This document shows positions 37,397 to 57,372 of a stretch of DNA of 64,000 nt, in pieces. The notes under the pieces were generated by a model. The model saw nothing but the letters and a program-made list of their open reading frames with translations. It ran no database searches and was not told where the DNA came from. The translations under genes were made by a program, and so were the position numbers. Every line of letters starts with the position of its first letter. Position 1 is the stretch's first letter. This DNA comes from Novosphingobium pentaromativorans US6-1 (lineage in GTDB: Bacteria > Pseudomonadota > Alphaproteobacteria > Sphingomonadales > Sphingomonadaceae), in contig NZ_CP009291.1 of NCBI RefSeq assembly GCF_000767465.1, positions 2,584,501-2,648,500 on the forward strand. Reading direction: 5' to 3'.

Positions 37397-37409
37397 AGCC
37401 TGTCTCCGC

Positions 37410-39360: not shown

Positions 39361-41796
39361 ATGAGATTGAAGGCTATTCTTTGTACTACTGCCATGGCAA
39401 CTTGCCTGTTTCATGCGCCAGCCATGGCGCAGGACAGCGCTTCCGCTGCCGACGATCAGTCAGCGCAAGCCTCGCACGGCGGTATCGAGGAAATCGTCGT
39501 TACCGCACAGCGCCGCGAGCAGAACCTGCAGGATGTGCCGGTAGCCGTGACCGCGGTGACGGCCTCGACGATCGAAGGCAATCGCATTCAGAACGTCAAC
39601 GATCTGAGTTCTATTGCTCCCAACCTCTCCGTTCGCGAGGGTGCCGGTGGCTCCAAGCTGCCGCAATACTCGCTGCGCGGCATTTACACTTATGGTTCGG
39701 CGATCGGCGCCGACAAGGGTGTCTCGCTTTATATCGACGGCGTCTATATTCAGTCTGTTGTCGGCTCGATCCTAGACTTCGCCGATATTGAGCGCATCGA
39801 AGTGCTGCGCGGTCCGCAAGGTACGCTGTTCGGTCGCAATGCGACCGGCGGCGCCATCAGCGTCACCACCCGCAAGCCGACCGGCGTGCTGGGCTTCCGC
39901 CAGGATGCCACCATTGGCAATTTCAACCAGTTGCGCACGAAGACCCGGGTCGATCTGCCGCGCATCGGGCCGTTCGCTATCACGGCCTCGTACATGCATT
40001 CCGAACGCGACGGCGATACGCGCAATCTGGGCGCGGGTACGCAGGTCGACTTCGGTCCTGCTACCAACGGCGCGAAGGGTGTCTACACGGCTCCGCGTCG
40101 CCTCGGTGACGAAAACAACGAAGGTGTCTTCGTGGCCGTCGATGCCGACTTCGATCCGGATCTCAAGGTTTCGTACAAGTTCGACTACGCCCAGAGCGAT
40201 TACACGGCGGGCGCCACGGGCCTGAGTTATCTGGCCGGTCCTTCGGCGTTGCAATACGGCGGGACACCGCCTTCGCTGGCCGGCTATTCCTTCTACAACG
40301 CCAGCCCCAACCCGATGACCCCGATCAGCCTGACCAGGCCGGATGCGGTGAACAACGCCTACAGTCTGGGCGGCATGACCAAGTCGCAGGGGCATAACCT
40401 GACCTTGGAGTGGTCCGCGACCGACAACCTGACGCTCAAGAACATCGCGGCCTATCGTACCAGCGAGACGACCAATACCTTGACCCAGCTTGACGGGTTG
40501 GGCGGCTTGCAGTTGCCCGCGACTTCCGGCGGGTTCCCGTTCGTATTCGTCCTCAACAATTCCAGCAACGACGACAGAACCTTCACTAACGAGTTCCAGC
40601 TGAACTACAGCACCGATCGGGTGAACGTCACGGCGGGCCTGCTGTACTTCGATTATCACCAGGTAGCGGGCGGCGCTCCCAACCTCTACAACGTTCTGTC
40701 AGGCTCTCCGGTGATCGGCCAGAACACGAGTTCTTTCCCGACTCCCTTCGTTCTGCCCAGGAACACCGGATACGTTCCGTCCGAGGTCGACGTCACTTCA
40801 AAGGCAGCCTACGCTCAGGGCGAATTCCACCTGACGGACGCGCTGAGCGTCGTAGGCGGCATCCGCTTCACGCAGGACAAGAAGTCCGGTCGGGAAACGG
40901 TGCCGGGCTCGGTTGCAATGCCGTCCAATGGCGCAAGCGTGCCCATTCGGTACAAGGACGATCGGGTCACCTATCTGATTGGCGTGAATTACAAGCCGAC
41001 GGACGATATTCTTGCCTATGCCAAGTATTCGACCGGCTATATTTCCGGCGGTCAGCTGGCGACGATCACGTTCGAACCTGAAACAGCATCGTCATTGGAG
41101 GCCGGTGTCAAGGCTGACCTCTTCGATCGCATGCTGCGCACCAACGTGGCCTTGTTCCACGTTGACTACAAGAACATCCAGGTGGCGACGCTGGGTTCGC
41201 TTACCGGCATTCCTTCGGCAGCCAACTTCGGACAGGCCATCATTCCGTTTGCGGACTCGCGGGCCTACGGCTTCGAATTCGAAAGCACCCTGGTTCCGAT
41301 GGACGGACTCACCCTGACGGCCAACGTCGGCTATACCGACTTCGACTGGAAGAAAGATACGATCTTCGCTGGCCTGTTGAACGGGGCAGGTGCTCCCGGA
41401 GTGAAGGAGTTCTTCCGTCCGAAGTGGACCGGAAGCACGTCTGCGCAATATAAGTTCTACGACGTAGTCGGCGGCGGCGATCTCGTGTTCCGCGCCGATC
41501 TCAACTACAAGAGCAAGACGCGTCTCTCCAACGACATTACCCCGGGTTCCGGCCCGACGGCACAGGCCGATCCGGCCTATGTCAAGGGCGTTACGGGACA
41601 GGAGCAGTTCATCCTGAACGGGCGCATTGCACTCACCCAGGTGCCGATCGGTCCCTTGAAGGGCGAAGTGGCCGTCTGGGGCAGGAATCTTCTGGACGAT
41701 GACAGCATCGTTCAGGCGACGGGTCTCGGCTTCGCGGTTGCCGTCATTTACGAACGGCAGCGGACTTACGGCCTGGATTTCTCGATCCAGTTCTGA
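39361..41796 (+). CDS. TonB-dependent outer-membrane receptor
   Basis: An 811-residue outer-membrane transporter. Signal peptide about residues 1-24 (LKAILCTTAMATCLFHAPAM, then AQ). The TonB box is EEIVVTAQRREQNLQ at about 44-58, then the plug domain (VAVTAVTASTIEGNRIQN; RGIYTYGSAIGADKGVSLYI; VLRGPQGTLFGRNATGGAIS) and a beta-barrel ending in the aromatic TYGLDFSIQF typical of C-terminal strands. Sphingomonad receptors of this type import hydrophobic substrates as well as siderophores; in this catabolic region the former is likely. It stands alone with its own leader and terminator. Confidence 0.95.
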   Translation: MRLKAILCTTAMATCLFHAPAMAQDSASAADDQSAQASHGGIEEIVVTAQRREQNLQDVPVAVTAVTASTIEGNRIQNVNDLSSIAPNLSVREGAGGSKLPQYSLRGIYTYGSAIGADKGVSLYIDGVYIQSVVGSILDFADIERIEVLRGPQGTLFGRNATGGAISVTTRKPTGVLGFRQDATIGNFNQLRTKTRVDLPRIGPFAITASYMHSERDGDTRNLGAGTQVDFGPATNGAKGVYTAPRRLGDENNEGVFVAVDADFDPDLKVSYKFDYAQSDYTAGATGLSYLAGPSALQYGGTPPSLAGYSFYNASPNPMTPISLTRPDAVNNAYSLGGMTKSQGHNLTLEWSATDNLTLKNIAAYRTSETTNTLTQLDGLGGLQLPATSGGFPFVFVLNNSSNDDRTFTNEFQLNYSTDRVNVTAGLLYFDYHQVAGGAPNLYNVLSGSPVIGQNTSSFPTPFVLPRNTGYVPSEVDVTSKAAYAQGEFHLTDALSVVGGIRFTQDKKSGRETVPGSVAMPSNGASVPIRYKDDRVTYLIGVNYKPTDDILAYAKYSTGYISGGQLATITFEPETASSLEAGVKADLFDRMLRTNVALFHVDYKNIQVATLGSLTGIPSAANFGQAIIPFADSRAYGFEFESTLVPMDGLTLTANVGYTDFDWKKDTIFAGLLNGAGAPGVKEFFRPKWTGSTSAQYKFYDVVGGGDLVFRADLNYKSKTRLSNDITPGSGPTAQADPAYVKGVTGQEQFILNGRIALTQVPIGPLKGEVAVWGRNLLDDDSIVQATGLGFAVAVIYERQRTYGLDFSIQF

Positions 41797-42260: not shown

Positions 42261-43271
42261 CTAGACGCGCAGCAGTTGCTTGCCGATGTTCAGGCCCTTG
42301 AAGATGCGCTGGAAGGTTGCGGGAATGTTTTCGAACCCGGTCTGGATGTCCTGCCGGTGGCTCAGGCGGCCTTCGCTGACCCAGCGTTCCAGACGGGCAT
42401 CGGCAACCTTGTTGTAGTCGCTGAAATAATGGACGAGGTAGCCCTTCATCGTCGCGTTCTGGATGGTCAGGCGAAGATAGTTCTTCGGTCCGCCCGGAAG
42501 GTCCTCGGGCTTCGACATGTCCCGCTCGTAATTGCTGATGCCGCCGCAGATGACGACGCGTGCGCCATAGGAAATGCGCGCCAGGGCAAGGTCGAGGATC
42601 GCGCCGCCGACATTGTCGAAGAAGATGTCGATGCCGTCCGGGCAGAGCGCATCCAGCTGGGCGGCAACATCGTCGGTCCGGTAATTGATCGCTCCGTCGA
42701 AGCCCAGTTCGTTGACGATCCAGTCGCATTTCTCCTGCGTACCGGCGATGCCGATAACGCGGCACCCGGCAATCTTGCCGAGTTGTCCGACGATCGATCC
42801 GATCGCGCCTGCCGCGCCGCTGACCAGCAGCACATCGCCGGGCCGGGGCATGCCGACGTGGACCAGCCCGAAATAGGCGGTCCTGCCCGAGGAGCCCAGG
42901 ATGCTCAGTGCGTTTTCGTCGTTCACGCCCGGAGAGATCTTCTCAAGCTGAGCGGCGCGCACGACCGGATGCATCTGCCAGCCGAGATGGCCGCGCACGC
43001 GGTCGCCGGGGGCGAAGGCAGGATCGCGCGACTCGACCACTTCGGCAATGGCGCGTCCGGGCATAATGTCGCCGATCTGGGTCGGGGCGGCATAGCCGGC
43101 CATGTTCGACATCCAGCTCTTCTGCGTCGGGTCGAAACCGAACATGCGAGCCTTGAGCAGGATGTCACCGTCTTCCAGGTCGCGCACGGCCCGCTCTTCA
43201 AGCGCGAAATCGCTTTCCCGCACTTCGCGCCCGATAGGTCGTTCCTGGATGGTCCAGCAAGTGTTCTTCAC
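42261..43271 (-). CDS. NADPH-dependent medium-chain reductase (MDR; CurA/PTGR-like), copy 2
   Basis: A 336-residue MDR reductase: MFGFDPTQKSWMS in the catalytic domain, VSGAAGAIGSIVGQLGK and GIAGTQEKC in the Rossmann domain, and FFDNVGGAILD as the family hallmark. Start: GTG giving MKNTCWTIQERP after GGGAG; a TTG three codons upstream overlaps the SD. Related to the MDR at 34567-35577, about half the motifs being shared, so the two probably reduce different intermediates. It is downstream of an SDR on the same strand and may be in the regulon of the IclR operator near 44146. Confidence 0.88.
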   Translation of the reverse strand: MKNTCWTIQERPIGREVRESDFALEERAVRDLEDGDILLKARMFGFDPTQKSWMSNMAGYAAPTQIGDIMPGRAIAEVVESRDPAFAPGDRVRGHLGWQMHPVVRAAQLEKISPGVNDENALSILGSSGRTAYFGLVHVGMPRPGDVLLVSGAAGAIGSIVGQLGKIAGCRVIGIAGTQEKCDWIVNELGFDGAINYRTDDVAAQLDALCPDGIDIFFDNVGGAILDLALARISYGARVVICGGISNYERDMSKPEDLPGGPKNYLRLTIQNATMKGYLVHYFSDYNKVADARLERWVSEGRLSHRQDIQTGFENIPATFQRIFKGLNIGKQLLRV

Positions 43272-43316
43272 GATCGTCAACTCCCAGTCTGCCGGAATGC
43301 CTTGCCGGCCAGTGAA

Positions 43317-44132
43317 TCAAAGCTGCCGGCGGATACCGCCGTCATGGACAAACGCCTGGCCGGTCACGAAGCGGGCCTCGTCCGATGCAAGATATACGAA
43401 GGCATGGGCAAGGTCTTCCGGGTCACTGACGATGCCCAGCGGGCTATGCTGTCCAAGCCCGCGCTCGGCATCGGCCTCGTCCTTGTAGCGGCCGGCCTTG
43501 ACCATCGACTGCATGCCGCGCTCGATCATCGGCGTCTTGGTAACGCCGGGGTGCACCGAGTTCACCCGAATACCCTGGGGGCCGAACTCATCGGCCGCGC
43601 ACAAGGTCAGCATGCGTGCCGCAGCCTTGGATGCGGAATAGGCGAAGCTCATCGTATTGGGCATGTAGGCGCCGACGGAAAGCGTATTGATGATCGAGCC
43701 GCCGCCGCGGTGCCGTTCACGGCTCTGTCCCAGAGCAGGCACGCAAGCCTTCATGCCAAGGACGATCGCACCGAAATTGACTTCCATCACCCGGTCGAGG
43801 TCCTCCTTCGGCAGGTCCATGATGGAGCCGTGGAGCGAAATGCCCGCATTGTTCACCAGGACGTCCAATCCGCCGAATTCGTCGATGGTGGCCTGGCATA
43901 CGCGCGCCCAGTCGTCAGCCTTGGCGACATTGTGCTGCAGGAAGAGGAAGCGGCCGGCGCCGTGCGACTGTGCCATCTGATCCGAGATTTCCTCTGCATG
44001 ATCTGCAGAAAGGTCGGTGGCAACCACTCCTGCGGCTCCTTCGCGCAGGAAGGCATCGCAGATGGCGAATCCAATGTTTCCGGCGGCTCCTGCCCCCGTA
44101 ACAATCGCGACTTTGCCGGTTAGACGACCCAT
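43317..44132 (-). CDS. Short-chain dehydrogenase/reductase (SDR)
   Basis: A 271-residue SDR whose cofactor loop TGAGAAGNIG has an insertion relative to the classical TGxxxGxG, NNAG mid-protein, Tyr-Lys in FAYSASKAAAR, and closing VTGQAFVHDGG. Likely an NAD-dependent alcohol or hydroxyacyl-CoA dehydrogenase. It is divergent from the MaoC-like gene, and the palindrome ACTTCA-N5-TGAAGT lies 14 bp upstream of its ATG, so it is probably regulated by the IclR protein encoded near 50.9 kb. Followed on the same strand by the second MDR reductase. Confidence 0.88.
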   Translation of the reverse strand: MGRLTGKVAIVTGAGAAGNIGFAICDAFLREGAAGVVATDLSADHAEEISDQMAQSHGAGRFLFLQHNVAKADDWARVCQATIDEFGGLDVLVNNAGISLHGSIMDLPKEDLDRVMEVNFGAIVLGMKACVPALGQSRERHRGGGSIINTLSVGAYMPNTMSFAYSASKAAARMLTLCAADEFGPQGIRVNSVHPGVTKTPMIERGMQSMVKAGRYKDEADAERGLGQHSPLGIVSDPEDLAHAFVYLASDEARFVTGQAFVHDGGIRRQL

Positions 44133-44145: not shown

Positions 44146-44162
44146 ACTTCATCAGGTGAAGT
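44146..44162. promoter_or_regulatory. Candidate IclR operator, two half-sites
   Basis: ACTTCA-TCAGG-TGAAGT, perfect 6-bp arms with a 5-bp spacer, 14 bp upstream of the SDR start codon. Same half-sites and spacing as the three-part sites at 44243, 50138 and 51136. Confidence 0.7.
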
Positions 44163-44242
44163 TTGAGTCCGTTCAATAAGGGCAGCGGACCGCGCGTGTC
44201 AATTGGCCTCGCGGCCGCGGCATCGGTCGTGATCCAATTATA

Positions 44243-44267
44243 TGAAGTATTGCTTCAACAGGCGAAC
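44243..44267. promoter_or_regulatory. Candidate IclR operator, three half-sites
   Basis: TGAAG-TATTG-CTTCA-ACAGG-CGAAC: half-sites spaced 10 bp start to start, the third degenerate. Lies 54 bp upstream of the MaoC-like start codon. Confidence 0.7.
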
Positions 44268-44321
44268 CAAACTAAGCCTGTTGCCGTTTCAAGAGTTGGA
44301 CCGCCAATACGGAGTTTGGTC

Positions 44322-44789
44322 ATGAACGCATCCCGATGTCCCGAACAGCTTGGCCAGGGCCATTTCTGGCAGGACCTTTCGGTCGGGCAGCGTTTCCGGA
44401 CTCTCAACCGGACCGTTACCGAAGCCGATCTGGTCAACTTCATCGGTGCGACCGGGATGCTGGAAGCCATTTTCATCGACGCCACCTTTGACGGCGCAAT
44501 GGAAGGCCGTGCCGTGCCCGGTGCCCTGACCTGCGGCCTCATCGAGGGATTGCAGTTCCAGACGTTGCTGCAGGCCACCGGGCTTGCCATGCTGGAAATG
44601 ACGATCAAGGCCGTGAAGCCGGTGTTCGTCGGCGATACCATACACGCGATAGTGACGATCGAAGCCGTTCGGCAGACCTCCAGGGGAGGACGCGGCCTCG
44701 TCGAATCCTCGGTCGATATCCGCAACCAGCGCGGCGAGACCGTGATGACCTATACCGCCAAGCGACTGATCGCCGGTCGTCCGGACTGA
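44322..44789 (+). CDS. MaoC-like hot-dog protein lacking the hydratase catalytic pair
   Basis: A 155-residue single hot-dog domain related to MaoC hydratases (FWQDLSVGQRFRTLNRTVTE, then AVKPVFVGDTIHAIVTIEAV). The hydratase-2 motif G-D-x-N-P-[IL]-H-x-D aligns with TGMLEAIFID, so the catalytic Asp and His are both missing. It may be a non-catalytic partner, a thioesterase-like enzyme or a repurposed fold. ATG with GGAG 7 nt upstream. First gene of the operon MaoC-like, CoA transferase, acyl-CoA dehydrogenase, with a three-part IclR operator in front. Confidence 0.82.
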   Translation: MNASRCPEQLGQGHFWQDLSVGQRFRTLNRTVTEADLVNFIGATGMLEAIFIDATFDGAMEGRAVPGALTCGLIEGLQFQTLLQATGLAMLEMTIKAVKPVFVGDTIHAIVTIEAVRQTSRGGRGLVESSVDIRNQRGETVMTYTAKRLIAGRPD

Positions 44790-44797
44790 TTGAACTT

Positions 44798-46048
44798 ATG
44801 ACAATGAGCAGGCCCACCATGCAGGACACTCCGCCGAACGCAGCGCCTTCGGGTGACGGCGTGGAACTTCGATCGCCGCCGCTTGCCGGTGTGCGCGTGC
44901 TCGATCTCTCGCGCGTGCTGGCCGGTCCCTGGTGCACGCAATGCCTGGCCGATCTGGGGGCTGAGGTCCTGAAGGTGGAAAGCCCGGGCGACGGGGACGA
45001 AACGCGGACCTGGGCGCCGCCCTACGCGGGGGACATGTCTGCCTACTTCACTTGCGCCAACAGATCCAAGAGCAGCCTCGTGGTCGATCTGAAGACGCAG
45101 GAAGGCAAGGATACCATCCTGGCACTCGCGGCTCAGGCGGATGTCGTGATCGAGAACTTCAAGACCGGCTCGCTGGAACGCATGGGGCTCGGCCGGGAAG
45201 ATCTGCGACGCATCAATCCGCGTCTCATCCATTGCTCGATATCCGGTTACGGCCGTTCCGGCCCACAGCCCGATCGCGCCGGCTACGACTTCGTGATTCA
45301 GGCGGAATCGGGCCTGATGTCGATTACCGGTGAGGCTGACGGGCCGCCTGTCAAAGTGGGCGTGGCGGTATCCGACATCATCACCGGCCTCTACGCCTCG
45401 CAGGCAATCCTCGCTGCACTGGTCGAGCAGCGAAAGACCGGGCAGGGCCGTTTCCTCGATGTCGCCCTGTTCGACTGTCAACTGGCGGCACTTGCCAATA
45501 TCCAGGCGAGCGTGCTGGCGACCGGTCAAACGCCGCGTCGTTTCGGCAACGCCCACGCGACGGTCGGTCCGTACCAGGTGGTGGATGCCGCTGATGGTCC
45601 CTTCGTCATCGCCCTTGGCAACAGCCGCCAGTTCGATGTCTTCTGCCGGCAATTGCTGGATCGGCCCGACATTGCCGAGGATGATCGTTTCAGGACCAAC
45701 GGCGACCGGTTGACCAACCGGGAGGCGCTGAACGCGCTGATTGCGCCTGAACTGCTCAAGCGGTCGAGTCAGGAATGGCTTGAGCTGTTTCACAGGCACG
45801 GGCTTCCCGGCGGCCTTGTCCAGACCGTCGATCAGGCACTGGCTTCCGAGCAGGTTTCTGGGCGGGGCCTCGTTCACCGCTTCAACGAGGAAATTGCCGT
45901 GGTGCGTTATCCCGTGCAGGTCGAGGGAGGCCTGCCCGATCCCTCTCCACCGCCGCACCCCGGCGAGGGCGGGGAAGCGCTGGCGCAAGAATGGCTGTCG
46001 GGCGTCAACGGCATATCCGCATCGGTTCAAGAGATGGAAAAAGGCTGA
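44798..46048 (+). CDS. CaiB/BaiF-type (class III) CoA transferase
   Basis: A 416-residue family III CoA transferase, which moves CoA from a donor acyl-CoA to an acid. Typical stretches: LAGVRVLDLSRVLAGPWCTQ, LGAEVLKVESPGDGDETR, HCSISGYGRSGPQPDRAGYD, and VGVAVSDIITGLYASQ, which should hold the catalytic Asp. It gives the pathway an ATP-independent way to activate an acid, next to the separate acyl-CoA synthetase. It lies 8 bp after the MaoC-like gene and 6 bp before the acyl-CoA dehydrogenase, clearly co-transcribed. Substrate unknown. Confidence 0.93.
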   Translation: MTMSRPTMQDTPPNAAPSGDGVELRSPPLAGVRVLDLSRVLAGPWCTQCLADLGAEVLKVESPGDGDETRTWAPPYAGDMSAYFTCANRSKSSLVVDLKTQEGKDTILALAAQADVVIENFKTGSLERMGLGREDLRRINPRLIHCSISGYGRSGPQPDRAGYDFVIQAESGLMSITGEADGPPVKVGVAVSDIITGLYASQAILAALVEQRKTGQGRFLDVALFDCQLAALANIQASVLATGQTPRRFGNAHATVGPYQVVDAADGPFVIALGNSRQFDVFCRQLLDRPDIAEDDRFRTNGDRLTNREALNALIAPELLKRSSQEWLELFHRHGLPGGLVQTVDQALASEQVSGRGLVHRFNEEIAVVRYPVQVEGGLPDPSPPPHPGEGGEALAQEWLSGVNGISASVQEMEKG

Positions 46049-46054
46049 CCGGTC

Positions 46055-47212
46055 ATGAACTTCGAGTTGAACGAAGATTTTTCGATGCTGCGCGATCTGG
46101 TGGCGCGCTTCGTGAAGGAAGAAATGCTGCCGCTCGAACCCGCCGTGCTCGAGCGCGAGGCGATGACGGGCAACGCGGCTCTCACGACCGAGGAAGAAGA
46201 GCGCTTGCGCTCGGTTTCAAAGGACATGGGCCTTTGGAGCCTCGATGCTCCTGAAGATGTCGGCGGCATGGCGCTGCCGCATGTCGCGATGGTGGGCGTC
46301 AACGAGGAACTGGGCAAGTCGGCGGTTGCCTTCCACCTGCCCCCCGACAGTCCCAACCTGCAGATGTTGATGGCGACGGTCAACGATGCGCAGCGCCAGA
46401 CCTACCTCGCGCCTTACGCGCAGGGCGATACCGTCTCTGCCATCGGCATTTCGGAGCCCGGTGCCGGTTCCGACCCCAAGGCCATGAAGGCGCGTGCGGT
46501 CAAGGATGGCGACGACTGGATCATCAACGGGCGCAAGATCTGGATTACCCGTGCCGACGAGGCCGATTTCACGATCCTGATGGCCAATGCGGAAGTCGAC
46601 GGGGAAAAGCGGGGCATCTCGGCGTTCCTGGTGGACGCGGACCTGCCCGGGTTCGAGGTCGTCCGCCCGATTCCCATGATCGGCGGAGAAATGACCTACG
46701 AAGTCCTGCTCGAAGACTGCCGCGTGCCCGGCGACAGGTTGCTGGGCGAACTGGGCAAGGGTTTCGCGCCGATGCAGGTGCGGTTGGGGACACGCCGTCT
46801 GCAGATCGCCTGCTGGTCGATCGGCATGGCGCAGCGCGCGCTCGATATGGTGTGCGAATACGCGCCCCAACGGCAGACCTTCGGTATGCCGCTGTCCAAG
46901 CGCGGCGGTGTGCAGGACTGGGTCGGCCAGGCCGCGACCCGGATCCACGCGGCACGCCTGATGACTTACGATTGCGCCTGGAAGCTGGACGAAGGCCGCG
47001 ACACCCGGCGCGAGATCTCGATGATCAAGGCCTTCTCCACCGAGATGGCATGGGACATCGTCGATCATGCGATGCAGTTGTTCGGCGCCATGGGCATGAC
47101 CCGCGAGATGCCGTTGCACCTGATGGCTTCGCGTATTCGCACGATGCGGATCTACGATGGCCCGACCGAGATCCACAACTGGGTTATCGGCCGGGACGTA
47201 TTGGCGGGCTGA
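46055..47212 (+). CDS. Acyl-CoA dehydrogenase, ACAD10/11-like
   Basis: A 385-residue FAD-dependent acyl-CoA dehydrogenase. Seen: helical N-domain (FSMLRDLVARFVKEEMLPLE), flavin strands (AIGISEPGAGSDPKAMK; WIINGRKIWITRADEA), arginine QRQTFGMPLSKRGGVQD, and C-terminal RIYDGPTEIHNWVIGRD. The C-terminal motif with DGPTEIH is that of the ACAD10/ACAD11 branch, whose members act with APH-type kinases on hydroxyacyl-CoAs. Two such kinases are encoded at 14.2-17.8 kb. It ends the operon with the CoA transferase; a short hairpin follows. Confidence 0.9.
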   Translation: MNFELNEDFSMLRDLVARFVKEEMLPLEPAVLEREAMTGNAALTTEEEERLRSVSKDMGLWSLDAPEDVGGMALPHVAMVGVNEELGKSAVAFHLPPDSPNLQMLMATVNDAQRQTYLAPYAQGDTVSAIGISEPGAGSDPKAMKARAVKDGDDWIINGRKIWITRADEADFTILMANAEVDGEKRGISAFLVDADLPGFEVVRPIPMIGGEMTYEVLLEDCRVPGDRLLGELGKGFAPMQVRLGTRRLQIACWSIGMAQRALDMVCEYAPQRQTFGMPLSKRGGVQDWVGQAATRIHAARLMTYDCAWKLDEGRDTRREISMIKAFSTEMAWDIVDHAMQLFGAMGMTREMPLHLMASRIRTMRIYDGPTEIHNWVIGRDVLAG

Positions 47213-47227
47213 GGGGCTATCCGCCCC
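47213..47227. terminator. Short hairpin between convergent genes
   Basis: GGGGC-TATCC-GCCCC stem-loop directly after the acyl-CoA dehydrogenase stop codon and 24 bp from the end of the convergent SDR gene. Weak; no T-run. Confidence 0.4.
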
Positions 47228-47251
47228 CCACCCACGCCCTGTTGAGGAAGA

Positions 47252-48103
47252 TCAGTCGAGCGCGGCCTGCGCCATGCGCTCGTTGAGCTGCGGATCCTTG
47301 AGGCCCTGAAGAAAGGATCCGCGGGCCGCGGCAGCGCCCGCCATCATTTCGGGGTGCGGCGAAACCCAGAAGTCGCCAGCCGCGATGCCGGCAAGGATCC
47401 GCTCCCCGGCCTGCTGGGCGGGAAGGCCATGATCGCGGATCATCGCCTTCATTTCCTCGTGGTGGGCCTTGATCAGCTTGTGTTCGCCAGCCGCCGCGGA
47501 ATCGGCGAAGATGCGGCTTTCGACCGGGCCCGGCAGGACGGCCGACACGTGGATCGGCGCCTTCAGTATCCGCAATTCCAGCGCCAGGCACTCCGTCAAC
47601 GACAGGACGGCATGCTTGCTGACCAGATAGGCGGCCTGCAATGGCGCCTGGCTGACGCCTCCGACCGATGACAGGTTGGCGATGGCAGCGGGCTTGCCGG
47701 CTTCGAGCATGCGCGGCACGAAAGCCCGCAGGCCGTTGACCACGCCCAGGACATTGATGTCCATGATCCGCCGCCATTGCTCGGGTGGCAGTTCCCAGAT
47801 CAGGCCGATCAGTTCAATGCCGGCATTGTTGATCAGCATGTCGACCTGGCCGTATTGCGCATAGGCCTGCGAAGCCAGTTCCTCGACCTGGGCCGGATCG
47901 GTAACGTCGGTATGGAACGCCGTGGCATCCGCGCCCGCTTCGCGCAGCGAAGCTGCCACTGCATCGACGCGCTCCGCCGCCTTGTCGGCCAGAACGAGCT
48001 TCATGCCAGAAGCTGCCGCGGCGCGGGCTATTCCCTCGCCGATTCCAGCACCGGCGCCAGTGATAACGATCACCTGGCCCTGTAGATTACCAAGATCCGT
48101 CAT
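47252..48103 (-). CDS. Short-chain dehydrogenase/reductase (SDR)
   Basis: A 283-residue SDR with TGAGAGIG, NNAG, Ser in NLSSVGGVS, Tyr-Lys in YLVSKHAV, and a long C-terminal part (SPHPEMMAGAAAARGSFLQG) without the usual closing D-G-G. That tail and the YLVSK context are shared with the SDR at 49170-50021 (YGATKHAV), so the two belong to one subgroup. Start MTDLGNLQGQ after GGGAGAGAA; an ATG four codons earlier overlaps the SD. It is downstream of the alpha/beta hydrolase on the same strand. Confidence 0.88.
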   Translation of the reverse strand: MTDLGNLQGQVIVITGAGAGIGEGIARAAAASGMKLVLADKAAERVDAVAASLREAGADATAFHTDVTDPAQVEELASQAYAQYGQVDMLINNAGIELIGLIWELPPEQWRRIMDINVLGVVNGLRAFVPRMLEAGKPAAIANLSSVGGVSQAPLQAAYLVSKHAVLSLTECLALELRILKAPIHVSAVLPGPVESRIFADSAAAGEHKLIKAHHEEMKAMIRDHGLPAQQAGERILAGIAAGDFWVSPHPEMMAGAAAARGSFLQGLKDPQLNERMAQAALD

Positions 48104-48156
48104 TTTCTCTCCCATACGAGGCTGGCCCGAGGTTGGTCGGGCCGGGTGAAAGGCTG

Positions 48157-49107
48157 TCAGTCGCCCATTGCGCGCAGGCGCTGGGCGAACCGCTCCGAAA
48201 GCCATGCGCACGTCTCGTCCATCGCCTTGCGCACGGCGGGTGAATAGGCAACGAAGGCAAGGAAACCATGCGGCATCCCGTCATAGCGGCGTGCATCTAC
48301 CGGGGTTCCTGCGAGGCGCAGTCTCTCGGCGTAACGCTCACCCAGATCGCGCGACGGATCGCATTCGCCGCTCACCACAAGGGCAGGGGCAAGTCCGTCA
48401 TGCCGCGCCGCATTGGCGGGTGTGGCGCGCGGGTCGTGCCGGTCCTGCGGGTCTGCCAGATAGCAATCCCAGTAGAAGCGGCTATCGGCGGCGCGCAGCA
48501 TCGGCCCATCGGCGTATTCCTTTGCGGACGGCGCCTCGGGATCCGGGAAGTCGGGGCTCGCATAAAGCAGGACCTGCGCCGCCAGTGGCAAGTCGTTGTC
48601 GCGCGCCTCGATGGCGAGGCTGGCGGAAAAGTTTCCTCCCGCACTGTCGCCGCCCACCGCGATCACACCCGGTATGGCATTGAGTTCACCGGGATGTTCG
48701 AAAGCCCAGCGCAGGCTGGAGGATGCATCCTCGACACCTGCCGGGAAGGGGTATTCTGGCGCCAGCCGGTAGTCGACCGACATGACTACGCAGCCGGCGC
48801 CTGACGCCAGCGCGCGGCAGATCGGATCGGCAATGTCCAGATTGCCCAGCACATACCCGCCGCCGTGGTAATAGACGAGCAGGGGGAAGGGGCCTTCTCC
48901 GTTCGGCGTATAGACCCGCACGGCAATGTCTCCGGCAGGGCCCGGGATCGTGCGATCGGCGACTGACGAAAGCGGCACGTCGAGCTTCGGCGCGCGCGCC
49001 GATCCGGCGTCGACCCGTGCCCGCAAGGTTTCGATGCTGATGCTGTCCAGCGGCGGCATCGGCGGAATGGCATTGATGATCGGGGCAAGTTCAGGGTGCA
49101 GCGCCAT
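48157..49107 (-). CDS. Alpha/beta hydrolase (hormone-sensitive-lipase family esterase/lactonase)
   Basis: A 316-residue HSL-type serine esterase. The oxyanion motif HGGGYVLG, nucleophile elbow GDSAGGN, an acid in ECDPSRDLGERYAERL, and catalytic His in DGMPHGFL are all present. No signal peptide. In a cluster with two Baeyer-Villiger monooxygenases it is a good candidate to open the ester or lactone they form (inference). It lies 53 bp before the SDR gene and 62 bp after another SDR on the same strand, forming a likely operon downstream of the operator at 50138. Confidence 0.9.
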   Translation of the reverse strand: MALHPELAPIINAIPPMPPLDSISIETLRARVDAGSARAPKLDVPLSSVADRTIPGPAGDIAVRVYTPNGEGPFPLLVYYHGGGYVLGNLDIADPICRALASGAGCVVMSVDYRLAPEYPFPAGVEDASSSLRWAFEHPGELNAIPGVIAVGGDSAGGNFSASLAIEARDNDLPLAAQVLLYASPDFPDPEAPSAKEYADGPMLRAADSRFYWDCYLADPQDRHDPRATPANAARHDGLAPALVVSGECDPSRDLGERYAERLRLAGTPVDARRYDGMPHGFLAFVAYSPAVRKAMDETCAWLSERFAQRLRAMGD

Positions 49108-49169
49108 GACAGTTCCTTTGGCGAATAGGGTGTTCGAAGGCGAAGGGCAGGGCGAGAGGAGCGGGAGGA

Positions 49170-50021
49170 CTACGCCTCTTCGCGCCCGCCGCCCCGCAAT
49201 TGCGCCGCGGATGCTTCGGCCCGGTCAAATGCGGCTTCGATCCTTGCGAAGCGGGCGCTGACGTGGGGGCGCAGTTCGGGGGCGGTGATGATGTAGAATG
49301 CGCCCTCCTTGATCGACCGAACCACATGCAGTCCGACGTGGTAGGGATCGAGGCCGTCGGGATTGGCCGAGCCGCTCTTGTATTCATCGGGCGGCGTGTC
49401 GACATCTTCCAGCCCCTGCGCCGCGCGCGAGCTGCGCCACAGCGCCGTGCGGACGGAGCCGGGAAGCAGGACGCTGACGCCGATATTGTTTTCGGCCAGT
49501 TCGGCGAGGAGCACTTCGGACAGTGCGACCACGGCATGCTTCGTGGCCCCGTACATGCTCCTCCCTGGCGTTCCGGGAAGAATGCCGGCCATCGAGGCGG
49601 TGTTGACGATGTGGCCCCCGCCAGCCTCCGTCATTTGCGGAAGGAATGCGTGCGTCCCGTAGAACACCCCGTTCAGGTTGATGTTGACGAACCGGTTCCA
49701 GACCGAGACGTCGAGCGTGCTCACCGGCATATTGGCGGCGCCGACGCCGGCGTTGTTGCACAGGACCTGCACCGGTCCGAGAGTGTCGCGCACCTTTTGT
49801 GCCAGTTCGACCCAACCGGATTGATCGCTGACATCGTGCACGAAGGGGCTGACGACAAGGCCGCGCTCCGTAAGGTTCATGGCCGCCTTCGCCAGCGCCT
49901 CGGCATCGTAGTCGACCATTGCGACAGTCATGCCTTCCTCGCCCAGCGCTTGCGCAAGGCCCAGCCCGATGCCGCTGGCCGCGCCCGTGACAAGGGCGGT
50001 CTTGCCGGCGAAATGGTCCAT
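49170..50021 (-). CDS. Short-chain dehydrogenase/reductase (SDR)
   Basis: A 283-residue SDR: TGAASGIG, NNAG, Ser in NTASMAGIL, Tyr-Lys in YGATKHAV, and a C-terminal tail (PELRPHVSARFARIEAAFD) with no D-G-G, like the SDR at 47252-48103. It heads a minus-strand operon of SDR, alpha/beta hydrolase and SDR. The three-part operator 117 bp upstream (50138-50162) suggests control by the IclR gene just upstream on the same strand. Substrate unknown; probably a secondary alcohol to ketone step before Baeyer-Villiger oxygenation. Confidence 0.9.
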   Translation of the reverse strand: MDHFAGKTALVTGAASGIGLGLAQALGEEGMTVAMVDYDAEALAKAAMNLTERGLVVSPFVHDVSDQSGWVELAQKVRDTLGPVQVLCNNAGVGAANMPVSTLDVSVWNRFVNINLNGVFYGTHAFLPQMTEAGGGHIVNTASMAGILPGTPGRSMYGATKHAVVALSEVLLAELAENNIGVSVLLPGSVRTALWRSSRAAQGLEDVDTPPDEYKSGSANPDGLDPYHVGLHVVRSIKEGAFYIITAPELRPHVSARFARIEAAFDRAEASAAQLRGGGREEA

Positions 50022-50137
50022 TTTTCGACTCCCGAATCGCCGTGCCTGAATGCCTTCCGACTGTCAGGTCGGACGAATCCTTGCGCCAGTGGCGTTTCGG
50101 CACTTCCTATCGCCCCGCGGAGTGTCCCGCAAGGGTT

Positions 50138-50162
50138 TGAAGCCTGACTTCATTGTGCGAAG
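50138..50162. promoter_or_regulatory. Candidate IclR operator, three half-sites
   Basis: TGAAG-CCTGA-CTTCA-TTGTG-CGAAG between the end of the IclR gene and the SDR start. Half-sites are 10 bp apart, as in the sites at 44243 and 51136. Confidence 0.7.
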
Positions 50163-50175
50163 CGAAAGTCGCTGG

Positions 50176-50949
50176 TCAGATCGTAGAGCCGGCCGCGATG
50201 GAATCGGCGGCTTCACGCAGTCGGGGAACGAGCTTGCGCTTCGCCTTTTCGTCCACGATATCGGTGAGGAACATGACGTTGAGGGCTGCGATCGCATAGC
50301 CGTCCACACAGACCGGTACGCCGATCGCGGAAACCTTCGAATCGTAATTGTGGGCACTGTAAACGGGATGCATCGTGGCGAAGCCAGCTTCCCGAACGCG
50401 TGCCAGCTGTTCATGCACGGCAGCGGCATCGTCTGCCAGCACTGCCTGCAGCCGCTCGTCGTGAGCCATCATTGCCACGATTTCCTGCACGACGTTTTCC
50501 GGCTGATAGGCCAGATAGGCCATTCCCAGAGACGTGCCCAGAATCGGTGCGCGATAACCGGCCTGGCGATTGAAGAAGAGGTGCCCCTGCGCGCGGCTCG
50601 TCTGCACCAGCACCATCATGTCGCGATCGCGCACCGCGAGATCGGACGGCCAGCTGATCCGGTCCTGCAGTTCGGCAAGAATGGGCTTCGACACCACGCT
50701 GAGCTGCTGTGCGGAGCTGTAGCCGGCGCTTAGCGACAAGGTCCGGCTGGTCGGTACATAGCATCCCGTCGTGCTGTCTTTCAGCACCAGTCCCGCCGCT
50801 TCCAGCGTCTCGAGTATCCGGACCACCGTGGACGAACTCAGCTGGGTCTCCTGGTGGATCCGGGCGAAGGAAGCCTGCGGCAACTGGTTGACAATGGCCA
50901 GTACGTCGAATGCCCGCAAAGCGGCCGTGACTGGCTTGTATGAAGGCAT
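50176..50949 (-). CDS. IclR-family transcriptional regulator (PcaU/PobR-like operator type)
   Basis: A 257-residue IclR regulator. The winged helix-turn-helix is at about residues 8-65 (VTAALRAFDVLAIVNQLPQA, ETQLSSSTVVRILETLEAAG), with the C-terminal effector domain (RAPILGTSLGMAYLAY; AIGVPVCVDGYAIAALNVMF). ATG of MPSYKPVTAALRAF is used; an ATG six codons upstream has no SD. It is divergent from the large Baeyer-Villiger monooxygenase gene, with a three-part operator in between. The same operator pattern at three other promoters makes it the likely regulator of the 42-53 kb genes. Confidence 0.9.
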   Translation of the reverse strand: MPSYKPVTAALRAFDVLAIVNQLPQASFARIHQETQLSSSTVVRILETLEAAGLVLKDSTTGCYVPTSRTLSLSAGYSSAQQLSVVSKPILAELQDRISWPSDLAVRDRDMMVLVQTSRAQGHLFFNRQAGYRAPILGTSLGMAYLAYQPENVVQEIVAMMAHDERLQAVLADDAAAVHEQLARVREAGFATMHPVYSAHNYDSKVSAIGVPVCVDGYAIAALNVMFLTDIVDEKAKRKLVPRLREAADSIAAGSTI

Positions 50950-51135
50950 GTACTTGACTTTCCCCATCCGAACGAACGCGCAGCTTCATTGCATGATTGC
51001 GCGAAAATGCAAACGCGGCGGGCTGAAAAGAGCGCGTTCCGGTTTCAGGGTGCCGAAATTTCCCCCGGGCAGAGGTGCATTGCGCTGATTCCGTGAATCG
51101 GATTGACAGCCAAATTCCGAATGCGTAAAAAATTT

Positions 51136-51160
51136 TGAAGCGAGACTTCATCTATTGAAG
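51136..51160. promoter_or_regulatory. Candidate IclR operator, three half-sites (best copy)
   Basis: TGAAG-CGAGA-CTTCA-TCTAT-TGAAG, all three half-sites perfect and spaced 10 bp. It lies 66 bp upstream of the Baeyer-Villiger monooxygenase start and in the shared promoter of the IclR gene. Confidence 0.75.
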
Positions 51161-51226: not shown

Positions 51227-53164
51227 ATGCACGATGGCGTTCACTTGAAGAAGTACAGCATTGACGATGAGCGGCTGCAGTCCGCTGTCGCGGCACTCGA
51301 TCCTGCGATCGCTTTGCTTGCCTTGGTTCATCTGACCGGCGATCGGACATTGCTGCGCACTCTGGGGGCGGCTTTCGACGGCGTGCCGCGTGCGGCCCAG
51401 TCGTCCTTCAGTCCGCGCGATCTTGGCCCTCCCAAGGAAGTGGACGCGGCCGTCGTGAAGCAGATCCGCGAAATGCTGATCGCGCAGATGGCGAAGGATC
51501 CGCATCCCCTCATCACTTTCCCCGACCGCGCCCTGTTCCAGCAGATGGCAGAGTTCTGCATAGGTATCCCGCTTGGCGAGCAGGCAGTCGCGATGGGCCG
51601 CGAGCAGGCCGGTTTCTCGAAGGACGAAGGCGCGGCCGAGGCTTCGCGCGTGCCGGGGCCGGACTTCAACGTACTGATCCTGGGCGGCGGCATGGTTGGC
51701 CTGATCGCCGCCATCAAGCTGAAGGCGGCCGGTTTCGATTATCGCATCGTCGAGCGGAACAAGTCCGTCGGGGGGACATGGTACCTCAACACCTATCCCA
51801 ACGTCGCGGTCGATACGCCGAGTGTGCAATACTCGCTGTCGTTCGAGCAGAACGCCTCCTGGAGCAAGTACTATCCGCGCGGCGCCGAATATCTCGCCTA
51901 CCTGCAGATGGTTGCCGACAAGTACCAGGTTACGGACAACATCGACTTCAATACCGAGGTTCAATCGTGCGTCTGGGACGAAGACCGAAAGCTGTGGACC
52001 GTCACCTGCGTCTGCGACGGTGAGACCAAGACTTATGAAGCGCGCGCGGTCATCAGCGCCTTCGGCTTCCTGACCAAGCCTTCCATGCCCAAGGTGGACG
52101 ACCTCGACACGTTCGAAGGCCCGCTGGTCCATTCCGGGTACTGGGATGACAGCATCGAAGTCGAAGGCAAGAAAGTCGTCATCGTCGGAACCGGAGCGAC
52201 TTCGGCGCAGCTGGCGACCAACCTTTCGGGCCGGGCCAGTCACGTCACCGTCGTGCAGCGCCAGCCCAACTACATGATGCCGGATGAGAAGACACTCAAG
52301 GACGTCGATGCGAACGAACGCTGGGCATTGGAGCACATCCCCTTCGTTACCCAGTGGAGCCGCTTCCAGAGCCTGGTGAGCATGCTGACGCTGCCGGTCT
52401 CACCGGGTGTGATCGACAAGGACTATCGCGAGCGTACCGGCGGTGTCTCGGCTCTCAACGAAGGCGCACGGCAAGTGAGCCTGAACTACATCGAATCGAA
52501 GTTCGCAGACTATCCCGAGCTCAAGCGCAAGGTGACGCCCGACTTCCCCTTCTTCGCCAAGCGCCCGATTCTCGATTGCGGCTATTACGATACGCTCAAG
52601 CGGCCCAATGTCGATCTGGTGGAGGGCAGTCTGGCTCGCTGCGAAAAGGACGCGGTCGTGCTGGCGGACGGCACCCGGATAGAGGCCGACGTCGTTGCCC
52701 TTGCGACCGGCTACTCGCTGGCCTTCCTGTCCAACATCGACATCACCGGACGAGACGGACGATCGCTGGAGGACGTGTGGAATCCCTATCCCTTTGCCTA
52801 CAAGGGTCTGGAAGTTCCCGGGTTTCCCAACTTCTTCATCACCAGCGGACCCAATTCGGGCCTGACTGCGTCTCACACGACCCTGGGGGAGCAGCAAGTC
52901 CACTATGTCGTCGAATGCCTCAAGGCGATGGTCGAGCGGGACCTCGTTGCGCTCGACGTTTCAGAGAAGGCCTGCACCGAATATTGCCAGGCGATCGAGC
53001 AGCGCCTTGAGGATACGGTGTGGGTGCAAAAGGGCACTGCGCACGGTTATTACCGGCACGAATCGGGCAAGGTCGTCCTGGCTTATCCGGGAACCAATCT
53101 CGAATACTGGAGCGCCCTGAGGCGTCCCGATCTGGGCGACTACGATACGATCGCGCGCCAGTAG
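51227..53164 (+). CDS. Type I Baeyer-Villiger monooxygenase with N-terminal extension (CPDMO-like)
   Basis: FAD/NADPH-dependent monooxygenase inserting oxygen next to a ketone, 645 residues. An N-terminal extension of about 145 residues precedes the first Rossmann motif (ILGGGMVGLIAA, about 151-162), as in cyclopentadecanone-type and steroid monooxygenases. The BVMO fingerprint is intact: F296-E-G-P-L-V-H302-S-G-Y-W306-D. The second Rossmann motif reads VVIVGTGATSAQLA. The start follows GGAG with about 9-nt spacing. Long BVMOs of this layout accept large cyclic or steroidal ketones, so a bulky substrate is inferred. Controlled by the divergent IclR operator. Confidence 0.92.
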   Translation: MHDGVHLKKYSIDDERLQSAVAALDPAIALLALVHLTGDRTLLRTLGAAFDGVPRAAQSSFSPRDLGPPKEVDAAVVKQIREMLIAQMAKDPHPLITFPDRALFQQMAEFCIGIPLGEQAVAMGREQAGFSKDEGAAEASRVPGPDFNVLILGGGMVGLIAAIKLKAAGFDYRIVERNKSVGGTWYLNTYPNVAVDTPSVQYSLSFEQNASWSKYYPRGAEYLAYLQMVADKYQVTDNIDFNTEVQSCVWDEDRKLWTVTCVCDGETKTYEARAVISAFGFLTKPSMPKVDDLDTFEGPLVHSGYWDDSIEVEGKKVVIVGTGATSAQLATNLSGRASHVTVVQRQPNYMMPDEKTLKDVDANERWALEHIPFVTQWSRFQSLVSMLTLPVSPGVIDKDYRERTGGVSALNEGARQVSLNYIESKFADYPELKRKVTPDFPFFAKRPILDCGYYDTLKRPNVDLVEGSLARCEKDAVVLADGTRIEADVVALATGYSLAFLSNIDITGRDGRSLEDVWNPYPFAYKGLEVPGFPNFFITSGPNSGLTASHTTLGEQQVHYVVECLKAMVERDLVALDVSEKACTEYCQAIEQRLEDTVWVQKGTAHGYYRHESGKVVLAYPGTNLEYWSALRRPDLGDYDTIARQ

Positions 53165-53310
53165 CGTCGGGACCGAGGCGTGCCGGCCCGCCTTCACCCG
53201 TCGCGACTGGATCAAGGCCATGACGCCGGAGTGCAAACATTTCCTGCAATAGAGGTATATGTTTTGGCTCCGGCATGGCATACTCCAACCCTGTCATCAG
53301 GGAGAGAACA

Positions 53311-54399
53311 ATGGCCATCAGGGTGATTCACTGGGGGACCGGGGCAACGGGCCGCCTGGCGCTGGGCGCCATTCTGGAACGCCCCGGACTCGAACTGGTG
53401 GGCCAGTACGTCTGGAACGCGGAAAAAGCGGGTCGCGATGCCGGGGAACTGATCGGTCGGCCCGCAGTCGGCGTCATCGCGACGCAGGACATCGACGCGC
53501 TGATCGCCCTGCGACCCGACGTGTTGACATATTTCGGCAATGGCGTGCGCGACCGGCAGCAAACGGCACGGGACATTGCGCGCTTCCTGCAAAGCGGCAT
53601 CAATGTCGTGACCAGTTCGCTCCCTCAGCTGATCCACCCCGACTGCGGTGAGCCTGACTTGCGCGAGATCGTCGAGGCGGCTTGCGAGGAGGGCGGGGCA
53701 ACCCTGTTCGCAAGCGGGATCGACCCCGGCTTCGCCACCAGCCATCTCGCTGTCACGGCCTATTGCGTGGCGCACCGGGTGGATCGTGTCCGACTGCAGG
53801 AATTTGCCGATTACGGCGTCTATCCGGATGAGCAGACCGGGCGGTATCTCTGGGGATTCGGACTGCCGCTGGATGCCGAAACCGTGGTATCCTCCGGTGC
53901 CTTTCTGAAGTCGGCCTGGACGGGAACTCTCGAAGCCAATGCCCGGGCGCTGGGCTGGACCATCGAGTCCTATCGCACGACATGCGTGACCGCTCCTGCC
54001 CGCAAAGACCATGAAACCGCGATTGGATCGATCGAGAAGGGGACTACGTCTGCCGTCTGGTTCCAGTTGATCGCAACCGTCGACGGGGCGGAAAAGCTGA
54101 TCCTGGAGCACGTGAACTGGATCGATGTCGACGACGTTCCCGCCGACTGGCCGGTGCCGCCGACATTCAGGGGAGAGCCTTCGGGCGTCTCTTACAGGCA
54201 AGTCATCGAGGGCGAGCCGTCCTACGATCTGGAGCTCCAGATGAAGGATTCCGACAACGGCCTGCTGATGACGGCGATGCATCCGGTGAATGCCATTCCC
54301 CTGACGATCGCCGCGAAGCCCGGTGTCATCGACCAGACCGGCCTGGCACCCTTCGGGCCGGGCGACGCAACATCACGGCTCGGCGCAGTTTTTAATTGA
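53311..54399 (+). CDS. DapB-like NAD(P)-dependent dehydrogenase, copy 1
   Basis: A 362-residue protein with a dihydrodipicolinate-reductase-like Rossmann N-terminus (IRVIHWGTGATGRLALGAIL, cofactor loop GTGATG). It is longer than DapB (about 270) and lacks the DapB catalytic HH-x-K motif; it resembles the group containing 2,4-diaminopentanoate dehydrogenase and uncharacterised catabolic relatives. A paralogue is at 62849-63889. Start MAIRVIHWG follows GGAGAG; a 12-codon upstream extension is less likely. It follows the BVMO by 146 bp and carries the weak element TAGAGGTATATGTT (53250-53263) in front. Substrate unknown. Confidence 0.8.
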   Translation: MAIRVIHWGTGATGRLALGAILERPGLELVGQYVWNAEKAGRDAGELIGRPAVGVIATQDIDALIALRPDVLTYFGNGVRDRQQTARDIARFLQSGINVVTSSLPQLIHPDCGEPDLREIVEAACEEGGATLFASGIDPGFATSHLAVTAYCVAHRVDRVRLQEFADYGVYPDEQTGRYLWGFGLPLDAETVVSSGAFLKSAWTGTLEANARALGWTIESYRTTCVTAPARKDHETAIGSIEKGTTSAVWFQLIATVDGAEKLILEHVNWIDVDDVPADWPVPPTFRGEPSGVSYRQVIEGEPSYDLELQMKDSDNGLLMTAMHPVNAIPLTIAAKPGVIDQTGLAPFGPGDATSRLGAVFN

Positions 54400-54476
54400 G
54401 TTACCTTTAGTCCTATGTTTGTATCGTCGCGAACGACGAGGGCCGGACTTGATGGCCGGTTTGAGAGGGCAGGAAT

Positions 54477-56116: not shown

Positions 56117-56236
56117 GCTGGAGCCTGCGTTCTCGACCCGCTTGCCGGTCGCGCTCATGCCAATCGCAACGGCTTGTTTGCCGCAAAGTCGTCAAGGCGA
56201 TCAGGAACAGGTCGAACATGACAAAGGGGAATCGCC

Positions 56237-57178: not shown

Positions 57179-57372
57179 AGATGATCGGCCCGGCATGAAG
57201 GGCACGGGCCGAGTTGCCGCGCCATGTGTGCGTGCAGGCCGGTTGCGCTCAGGGCGCAAGCATGACCGGGACTTGAGAAGTGGCCGGATTGCCGTGTGTG
57301 GAACAGCGGCAAGGTCTGGCAAGACTGACCTGAAAGAGGTATTTCTAATGTCCATACCGAAGGGACGAGGAC

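Follow-up and report, generated by a model that had tools for sequence, protein, structure and literature searches.

Introduction

Three-box binding sites are known for the IclR-family regulators PcaU, PobR and HmgR, with 32 predicted orthologous groups (Suvorova and Gelfand 2021, PMC8222616). In these sites alternating boxes form a group 2 pair (TGRAA...TTYCA) and a group 1 pair (TTYC...GRAA) that have box 2 in common; the systems usually comprise one or two adjacent operons, and alternative dimerisation on the three boxes has been raised as an open question (PMC8222616). For PcaU the third box is reported as needed for binding. PheR from Sphingobium sp. SHPJ-2, an IclR repressor, acts on a degradation operon and binds more weakly in the presence of the substrate (PMC13273656).

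Here we analyze a stretch of 64,000 nucleotides from Novosphingobium pentaromativorans US6-1, referred to as the window, in which monooxygenase and acyl-CoA genes lie clustered and can now be described as a putative regulon, with its regulator named and its candidate operators located exactly. From the sequence, we consider it likely that the IclR protein encoded at 50176-50949 binds the three-box and two-box sites listed in Table 1 and controls the four surrounding operons, which resemble a degradation module.

Candidate operators between the genes

The initial annotation had reported three TGAAG-N5-CTTCA-N5-YGAA sites and one two-box site, and direct reading confirmed all four at exactly the positions given there. 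The third box reads YGAA at each three-box site, as claimed, with the one at 44243-44267 ending in C. The sites do lie between gene starts, but the placing of two of them needed correction. The operator at 50138-50162 begins 13 bp past the iclR stop, and its distance to the start of SDR 49170-50021 is 117-141 bp. For the operator at 51136-51160 the distance to the ATG of the BVMO gene (51227) is 67-91 bp, but that to the start of iclR (50949) is 187-211 bp; by its geometry it is placed at the BVMO promoter, and the control of iclR by its own product, proposed in the initial annotation, is only a possibility.

Table 1. Genes, candidate operators and promoter-like elements of the locus.
Feature	Position	Strand	Basis or remark
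Zinc-type reductase (42261-43280) and SDR (43317-44132), gap 36 bp	42261-44132	-	
Two-box everted operator ACTTCA-N5-TGAAGT	44146-44162	-	Direct reading; leader of SDR 43317-44132, 14-30 bp before ATG
Perfect TATAAT -10-like element, toward SDR 43317	44237-44242	-	Consensus match only; abuts operator 44243-44267
Three-box operator TGAAG TATTG CTTCA ACAGG CGAAC	44243-44267	+	Direct reading and pattern search; between SDR 43317 and MaoC 44322
MaoC-like (44322-44789), CoA-transferase III (44798-46048), acyl-CoA dehydrogenase (46055-47212); gaps 8 and 6 bp	44322-47212	+	
SDR (49170-50021), alpha/beta hydrolase (48157-49107), SDR within 47252-48211	47252-50021	-	
Three-box operator TGAAG CCTGA CTTCA TTGTG CGAAG	50138-50162	+	Direct reading and pattern search; between iclR stop and SDR 49170-50021 start
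IclR-family regulator, 257 aa	50176-50949	-	PF09339 and PF01614; alignment
Sigma-70-like promoter TTGACA-N17-TAAAAA, BVMO operon	51103-51131	+	Sigma-70-like match; similar geometry in 40/51 relatives
Three-box operator TGAAG CGAGA CTTCA TCTAT TGAAG	51136-51160	+	Direct reading and pattern search; iclR/BVMO divergent region
Baeyer-Villiger-type monooxygenase (BVMO), ~140-residue N-terminal extension	51227-53164	+	FMO-like/Pyr_redox
DapB-like dehydrogenase	53275-54399	+	Downstream of BVMO
Thiolase	54477-55682	+	Downstream of BVMO
ChsH2-type OB-fold protein	from 55682	+	Downstream of BVMO
Hydrolase	56237-57178	+	Downstream of BVMO
Second BVMO-like gene	57373-58998	+	Downstream of BVMO

All three sites have the alternating boxes of the PcaU, PobR and HmgR sites, with a group 1 and a group 2 pair sharing a box. 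They differ in that the box is TGAAG and not of the GTTCG type of PcaU (PMC8222616), and in that four operons would be involved. Boxes 1 and 2 resemble 15-bp arrangements such as TGGAAATNATTTCCA among the A/T-rich palindromes of KdgR and IclR (PMC8222616), to which the window operator adds a third box. The MhpR motif, GGTGCACCTGGTGCACA, is unlike TGAAG (PMC8222616). PheR is similar as an IclR repressor of a degradation operon, repression being a prediction in our case, but it has the core GCAACG, and the part of its description available to us mentions no three-box site (PMC13273656). Since three-box IclR sites are already known (PMC8222616), what is new here is a further case whose box has shifted (TGAAG instead of TGAAA). 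Among the papers listed by literature searches, none was recognised as dealing with this motif or with an IclR protein that regulates a BVMO cluster.

The IclR protein and its relatives

The start of iclR follows that of its homologues, the majority of them beginning at an aligned MPSYKPVTA or MASFKPVTA. The protein belongs to the IclR family (PF09339, 38.5 bits with a cut-off of 22; PF01614, 59.4 bits with a cut-off of 24). It scores 105.5 bits against the PcaR/PcaU/PobR subfamily TIGR02431, which has a cut-off of 284.75, and its best curated sequence match, to the PRK09834 equivalogs, which we take to be the MhpR group, reaches 149.8 bits, below the cut-off of 269. Because the protein is so far below both sets of cut-offs, the proposed likeness to PcaU holds for the architecture of the operator, three alternating boxes 10 bp apart, and not for membership in the PcaU/PobR family. 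Several relatives of the protein bear the name MhpR-like.

The operator accompanies this IclR subfamily. Among the loci of the best 80 of 143 relatives, whose IclR proteins are 37-49% identical, 74 contain a three-box YGAAR site with 10-bp spacing and at least 14 of 15 matching positions when the whole locus is counted; ten other spacings at the same loci reach at most 27, and six loci are without a site at 14/15. A site of at least 14/15 with spacing 10/10 occurs within 320 bp before iclR in 49 of the 79 loci that have enough upstream DNA, while the best of 80 other spacings gives 10. By these spacing controls the 10-bp distance between boxes is fixed across the relative loci. The sites near iclR fall into three narrow zones. 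Relatives, too, have sites shortly 3' of the gene, as with 50138-50162 (23 strand matches, +800 to +999 from the start of the iclR match). The loci are mostly from alphaproteobacteria, with some from Pseudomonas and other gammaproteobacteria. Beside more distant IclR proteins the operator is nearly absent (sites at 14/15 in 1 of 14 loci), and two more distant relatives from an order-level search, 34-37% identical, both lack it. A single-protein scan of the genome contigs found no relative. Together with the four promoter regions at the locus, these data support the local regulon that the initial annotation had assigned to this protein.

The sites could in principle be bound by another IclR protein of the US6-1 genome, which has six IclR_C matches; one of the other five, at C1:2597882-2598043, lies in the window at ~13.4 kb. 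This is very unlikely, as the motif goes with the relatives of the 50176-50949 protein and is missing beside the other five, where at most 12/15 positions match within the 3.1-3.5 kb around each. A genome search at E 1e-20 recovered the 50176-50949 protein alone.

In the phylogenetic tree, the window protein and P0002-P0006 form a clade with a support of 1.0 among the relatives; P0002 is 76% identical to it. The tree was rooted on the frame 13349-14239; it leaves four genome paralogues, which gave no match and are absent from it, without a position. The recognition helix of the window protein reads SSSTVVR, while relatives mostly have D/N-K-A-T-I/V-VR; the operator box is TGAAG here and mostly TGAAA in relatives. 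None of the relative loci examined, all of them from outside the nearest relatives, has TGAAG boxes at all positions. We read the changed box and helix as a sign that the DNA specificity of this clade has probably shifted, and the TGAAG/TGAAA pair makes a concrete prediction on specificity.

Promoter geometry and mode of control

PcaU/PobR/HmgR-type three-box operators lie upstream of the promoter, whereas the operator at the BVMO gene is at the expected start of transcription. The sigma-70-like promoter of the BVMO operon ends 4 bp before box 1 (51136), with an expected start at about 51138, inside the operator. With sigma-70 weights that were not fitted and a distance band chosen after inspecting the aligned promoters, 40 of 51 relatives, which are not independent of one another, also have the end of their best sigma-70-like promoter just ahead of box 1. 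In these the operator was masked, because promoter-like hexamers inside it confounded a first, unmasked run (19 of 51; shuffles, mean 1.4). Shuffled sequences gave a mean of 5.7 and a maximum of 10 of 51 in 60 rounds, the opposite strand gave 5 of 51, and 11 of the 51 relatives lack this geometry. Box 1 mostly starts 3-5 bp after the -10 element. A promoter that ends just before box 1 means that the bound operator would cover the transcription start, which points to repression at the BVMO promoter.

The other promoters are less uniform. Toward SDR 43317, TTCGCC N18 TATAAT on the minus strand has its -35-like hexamer within the operator 44243-44267, and the two-box site is downstream of TTGACA (44202-44197) N18 TATTGA (44178-44173) on the same strand. 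Next to the sites that precede SDR 49170 and, on the plus strand, MaoC (44322), no notable sigma-70-like promoter was found; occlusion is therefore argued for two of the four promoters only. A stricter consensus scan finds none of these promoters, the BVMO promoter included.

PcaU, PobR and MhpR are activators, and the same IclR protein and sites could form an effector-dependent activator of this kind, with the operator recruiting RNA polymerase. The IclR family includes activators, repressors and dual regulators (PMC8222616). SDR 49170 and MaoC, which have no promoter-like match before the operator, would suit activation, and a weak downstream promoter may have gone unseen there. However, at the BVMO gene and in the 40 relatives, promoter-like elements precede the operator, which lies at or after the start point, and this makes activation unlikely in our view.

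Under the favoured repression, IclR dimers would sit on boxes 1+2 in convergent and on boxes 2+3 in everted arrangement within a single 25-bp operator. At the BVMO promoter about the first 25 bases to be transcribed would lie under the bound protein, RNA polymerase would be blocked, and the pathway acid or its CoA ester might release it from the operator. The promoter-locked geometry makes a concrete prediction of repression. A broader view, which we put forward tentatively and hold to be doubtful as a whole, is that of a widespread IclR subfamily whose 25-bp operator of three boxes is tied in position to the -10 element, in which 1+2 versus 2+3 dimers could give repressed and released states, and in this clade of which the box (TGAAA to TGAAG) and the recognition helix (D/N-K-A-T to S-S-S-T) shifted together. 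If true, the co-shift would be a natural pair for asking how IclR proteins read their boxes and choose dimer modes; the 51 aligned promoters are a natural set to test alternative dimerisation on three-box IclR sites.

Predicted pathway

The genes of the putative regulon may together serve to degrade a cyclic ketone or a compound that resembles a terpenoid or steroid. The BVMOs and hydrolases would open a ring or ester, the CoA-transferase would activate the resulting acid, and the acyl-CoA dehydrogenase, MaoC, SDRs and thiolase would degrade the activated acid. Cyclohexanone, steroid and phenylacetone monooxygenases align with the first BVMO from about residue 134-149 onward. With gaps no longer than 194 bp, the genes at 53275-58998 probably belong to the BVMO operon. 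No mhp-type ring-cleavage family was found among the regulon genes scanned.

The genes divergent from iclR in relatives, tallied for 30 hand-chosen frames out of 72 candidates, encode a CoA-transferase III in 14 cases and an acyl-CoA dehydrogenase in nine. In two further relatives the operator lies between iclR and a CoA-transferase gene; the product of one of these, from G107, is 49% identical to the window CoA-transferase. This gene content, with the CoA-transferase and acyl-CoA dehydrogenase genes beside the operator in relatives, makes a single pathway plausible.

Motif distribution in the genome and family

The exact three-box pattern has three matches in the whole genome (5,457,578 bases), all in 7 kb of this window. 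Allowing one mismatch adds five matches and two mismatches 50, which gives 58 in total against 42 for a reversed-pattern control; the motif therefore stands out only if exact and clustered. The exact pattern is present in 21 of 397 family genomes: 20 of the 396 others hold one copy each and none more, and only the US6-1 genome has more than one. The degenerate form YGAAR-N5-YTTCR-N5-YGAAR has three genome matches (control, 0). Two of them are at this locus, and a 487-aa reading frame overlaps the third, C1:871288, with its 5' end.

A chance origin of the sites, as palindromes that happen to occur between genes, is extremely improbable. With up to two mismatches allowed, one of 100 dinucleotide shuffles of the window did reach three matches, and the two-box CTTCA-N5-YGAAG is not enriched genome-wide (10+10 strand matches against 29+26 in the control), so the site at 44146-44162 rests on its place. 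The three matches that the window itself gives at this tolerance, however, are all exact, and they are clustered, intergenic and kept in relatives at a fixed spacing. No further members are claimed in the window, because at lower scores the 10/10 spacing shows no excess over other spacings, and weak sites were rejected.

The palindrome TGAAG-N5-CTTCA was rejected as a regulon marker by itself. It has 19 places in the genome against eight for the reversed control; 16 are outside the cluster, and of 12 inspected, 11 fall within a reading frame of 234 aa or more, although such frames count as weak evidence where the DNA is GC-rich. The remaining one (L006) is at the edge of a reading frame. Among the five one-mismatch three-box sites, three are covered by long frames (C1:871288 by its first codons only) and another by a weak 117-aa frame. 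The site at C1:1486690 lies before a gene that, judged by eye, resembles a TonB receptor, and is a candidate only.

Operator sites in the window

The initial annotation placed three three-box sites and one two-box site here, and direct reading and a pattern search returned the same coordinates. All four sites are intergenic, between gene starts. Each three-box site reads TGAAG, N5, CTTCA, N5, YGAA; the final base is G in two and C in one, and within each site the middle box is common to two distinct palindromes (boxes 1+2 and 2+3). The iclR start at 50949 was retained because the corresponding residue is the first residue in most aligned homologues.

Genes, operator sites and predicted promoter elements (window coordinates)
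Feature	Position or elements	Strand	Location or remark
SDR 43317	43317-44132	-	
MaoC	44322-44789	+	
SDR 49170	49170-50021	-	
IclR protein	50176-50949	-	
BVMO (Baeyer-Villiger-type monooxygenase)	51227-53164	+	
Two-box site	44146-44162		divergent SDR/MaoC region
Three-box site	44243-44267		divergent SDR/MaoC region
Three-box site	50138-50162		between iclR stop and SDR start at 50021
Three-box site	51136-51160		divergent iclR/BVMO region
BVMO promoter	TTGACA 51103-51108, 17 bp, TAAAAA 51126-51131	+	predicted; box 1 at 51136
SDR 43317 region	TTGACA-N18-TATTGA ahead of 44146-44162		promoter-like, predicted
SDR 43317 region	perfect TATAAT abutting 44243-44267		-10-like, predicted

The exact three-box pattern has only three matches in the 5.46-Mb genome, and these fall within one 7-kb stretch of the window. 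With up to two mismatches there were 58 genome matches versus 42 for the reversed pattern; therefore the weight rests only on the exact, clustered matches. A degenerate three-box form matched three times, two of them in the window region (control, 0). The exact pattern is present in 21 of 397 family genomes, against 10 for the reversed control (rows counted by hand); it is single-copy in 20 of the 396 other genomes, and only the window's genome has more than one copy. The two-box pattern alone was not enriched over its control, and the two-box site is supported by its position: it adjoins a start codon, and a three-box site lies 80 bp away.

Three-box IclR sites are already known. PMC8222616 describes two IclR box arrangements and predicts three-box sites for 199 proteins belonging to 32 groups; PcaU, PobR and HmgR are cited there. 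The window protein is a member of the IclR family. The likeness to PcaU and PobR that had been proposed did not hold as family membership, since the protein falls under the PcaU/PobR cut-off and likewise under that of the MhpR type. The operator is thus of an ordinary and well-supported type whose geometry lends itself to testing, with an apparent specificity variant.

The operator in relatives of the IclR protein

A genus-wide whole-genome search with the IclR protein found only itself (1 of 195 at E 1e-35); family-wide, 16 of 298 were found at E 1e-20, itself included. In the best other family relatives, from genomes G107 (46% identity) and G071 (44%), a divergent family III CoA-transferase gene is separated from iclR by a region carrying the three-box site in a TGAAA form; the G107 CoA-transferase shares 49% identity with the one at window 44798-46048.

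Scanning named genomes with a profile yielded 143 relatives, the best 80 of which were taken as loci. Enough upstream sequence was available for 79 of them. In 49 of these, the 320 bp ahead of iclR contained a site with spacing 10/10 matching 14 or more of the 15 box letters, and in 34 a site matching all 15; the best among 80 other spacings reached 10 and 4 loci, respectively. Over whole loci (up to ~20 kb), 74 of these best 80 reached 14/15 and 52 reached 15/15, compared with at most 27 and 5 for ten other spacings. Loci with more than one operator near the regulator are not uncommon: 13 of the 80 had at least two perfect matches. Between 2 kb upstream and 2.8 kb downstream of the iclR start, the 86 strand matches (overlapping matches on opposite strands scored separately) fell into three zones, with 53 directly ahead of iclR, 23 directly behind it, where window site 50138-50162 also lies, and 10 at 1.4-1.9 kb before it. 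Outside this range there were 33 in 1.05 Mb.

At loci of more distant IclR proteins (25-33% identical), 1 of 14 had sites at 14/15, and two relatives at 34-37% identity had no site in their loci. Among 30 divergent frames, hand-picked from 72 candidates and searched against Pfam, 14 were CoA-transferase III, 9 acyl-CoA dehydrogenase and 4 TauD-type; acyl-CoA genes often adjoin iclR in this subfamily. Together, the conservation at relatives' loci and the near-absence at distant loci argue that the three-box operator belongs with the subfamily of the IclR protein, to which the initial annotation had assigned the sites.

Gene content

Pfam, NCBIfam and PDB searches identified a BVMO with an N-terminal extension, a second BVMO-like enzyme, two alpha/beta hydrolases, three SDRs, a zinc-type reductase, MaoC, a CoA-transferase III, an acyl-CoA dehydrogenase, a thiolase and a ChsH2-type OB-fold protein. 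The pathway would proceed by oxidation, opening, activation and degradation.

Promoter geometry

Sigma-70-like promoters were scored with the operator masked in 51 relatives (the 49 named loci, G107 and G071). Read from box 1 to box 3, the best promoter had its -10 start 7-13 bp before box 1 in 40 of these 51 non-independent relatives, the distance band (-15 to -6) having been chosen after the aligned promoters were viewed; shuffled flanks gave a mean of 5.7 of 51 (maximum 10 over 60 rounds) and the opposite strand 5.

In the window, the iclR/BVMO operator lies at the BVMO promoter, 187-211 bp from the iclR start, and the predicted BVMO transcription start would fall within box 1. A stricter promoter scan recovered none of the BVMO or SDR 43317 promoters, its sole match overlapping the 44146 site; for MaoC and SDR 49170 no such sigma-70-like element was visible beside the operators. 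Operators at or after the predicted start point, as at BVMO, would fit repression, with an effector releasing the IclR protein; at MaoC and SDR 49170 control may be of either sign. The dimer of the IclR protein may occupy either boxes 1+2 or boxes 2+3 of the window sites; such alternative placement on three-box sites is proposed in PMC8222616.

The TGAAG variant

Among 119 matches in relatives, selected with A or G permitted at the fifth box letter, this letter is A in 82% (box 1), 92% (box 2) and 87% (box 3); of the 11 boxes in the window, 10 have G at this letter and one has C. The window protein has the recognition helix SSSTVVR, and its closest relatives (P0002-P0006), which form one clade with it (support 1.0), have SS[SA]TVVR; the relative loci mostly have D/N-K-A-T-I/V-VR, NQPT or NRPT. 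Since box letter and helix both differ from those of relatives, we infer that DNA specificity has shifted in this clade. Six Methylobacterium loci (L092-L096, L116) with helix NRPT have TGAAC in box 1 only, and box 1 likewise deviates at L089 and L090, also NRPT; these loci are a further sign of possible joint variation of helix and box.

Other sites and genes

Elsewhere in the genome, site L006 (G000 C1:1486690-1486713, minus strand) is a three-box site with one mismatch and a perfect convergent palindrome. It lies ~130 bp before a TonB-receptor-like gene, with a tannase-like frame on the opposite side (both judged by eye), and is a candidate distant regulon member. Within the window, 13349-14239 (-) encodes a second IclR-family-like protein (IclR_C 24.5 bits, barely over cut-off). 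Adjoining the regulon, 35774-41796 encodes a KshA-like Rieske oxygenase, an AMP-dependent ligase and a TonB receptor; these genes may be under other control, because the three-box site is absent there, exact or with two mismatches. Ten frames were scanned in 6198-32075, 3 of them without a match; with two aldehyde dehydrogenases, a biotin-dependent carboxylase subunit, an APH-type protein, an SDR, a thiolase-like protein and an amidohydrolase, this remainder of the window also looks catabolic.
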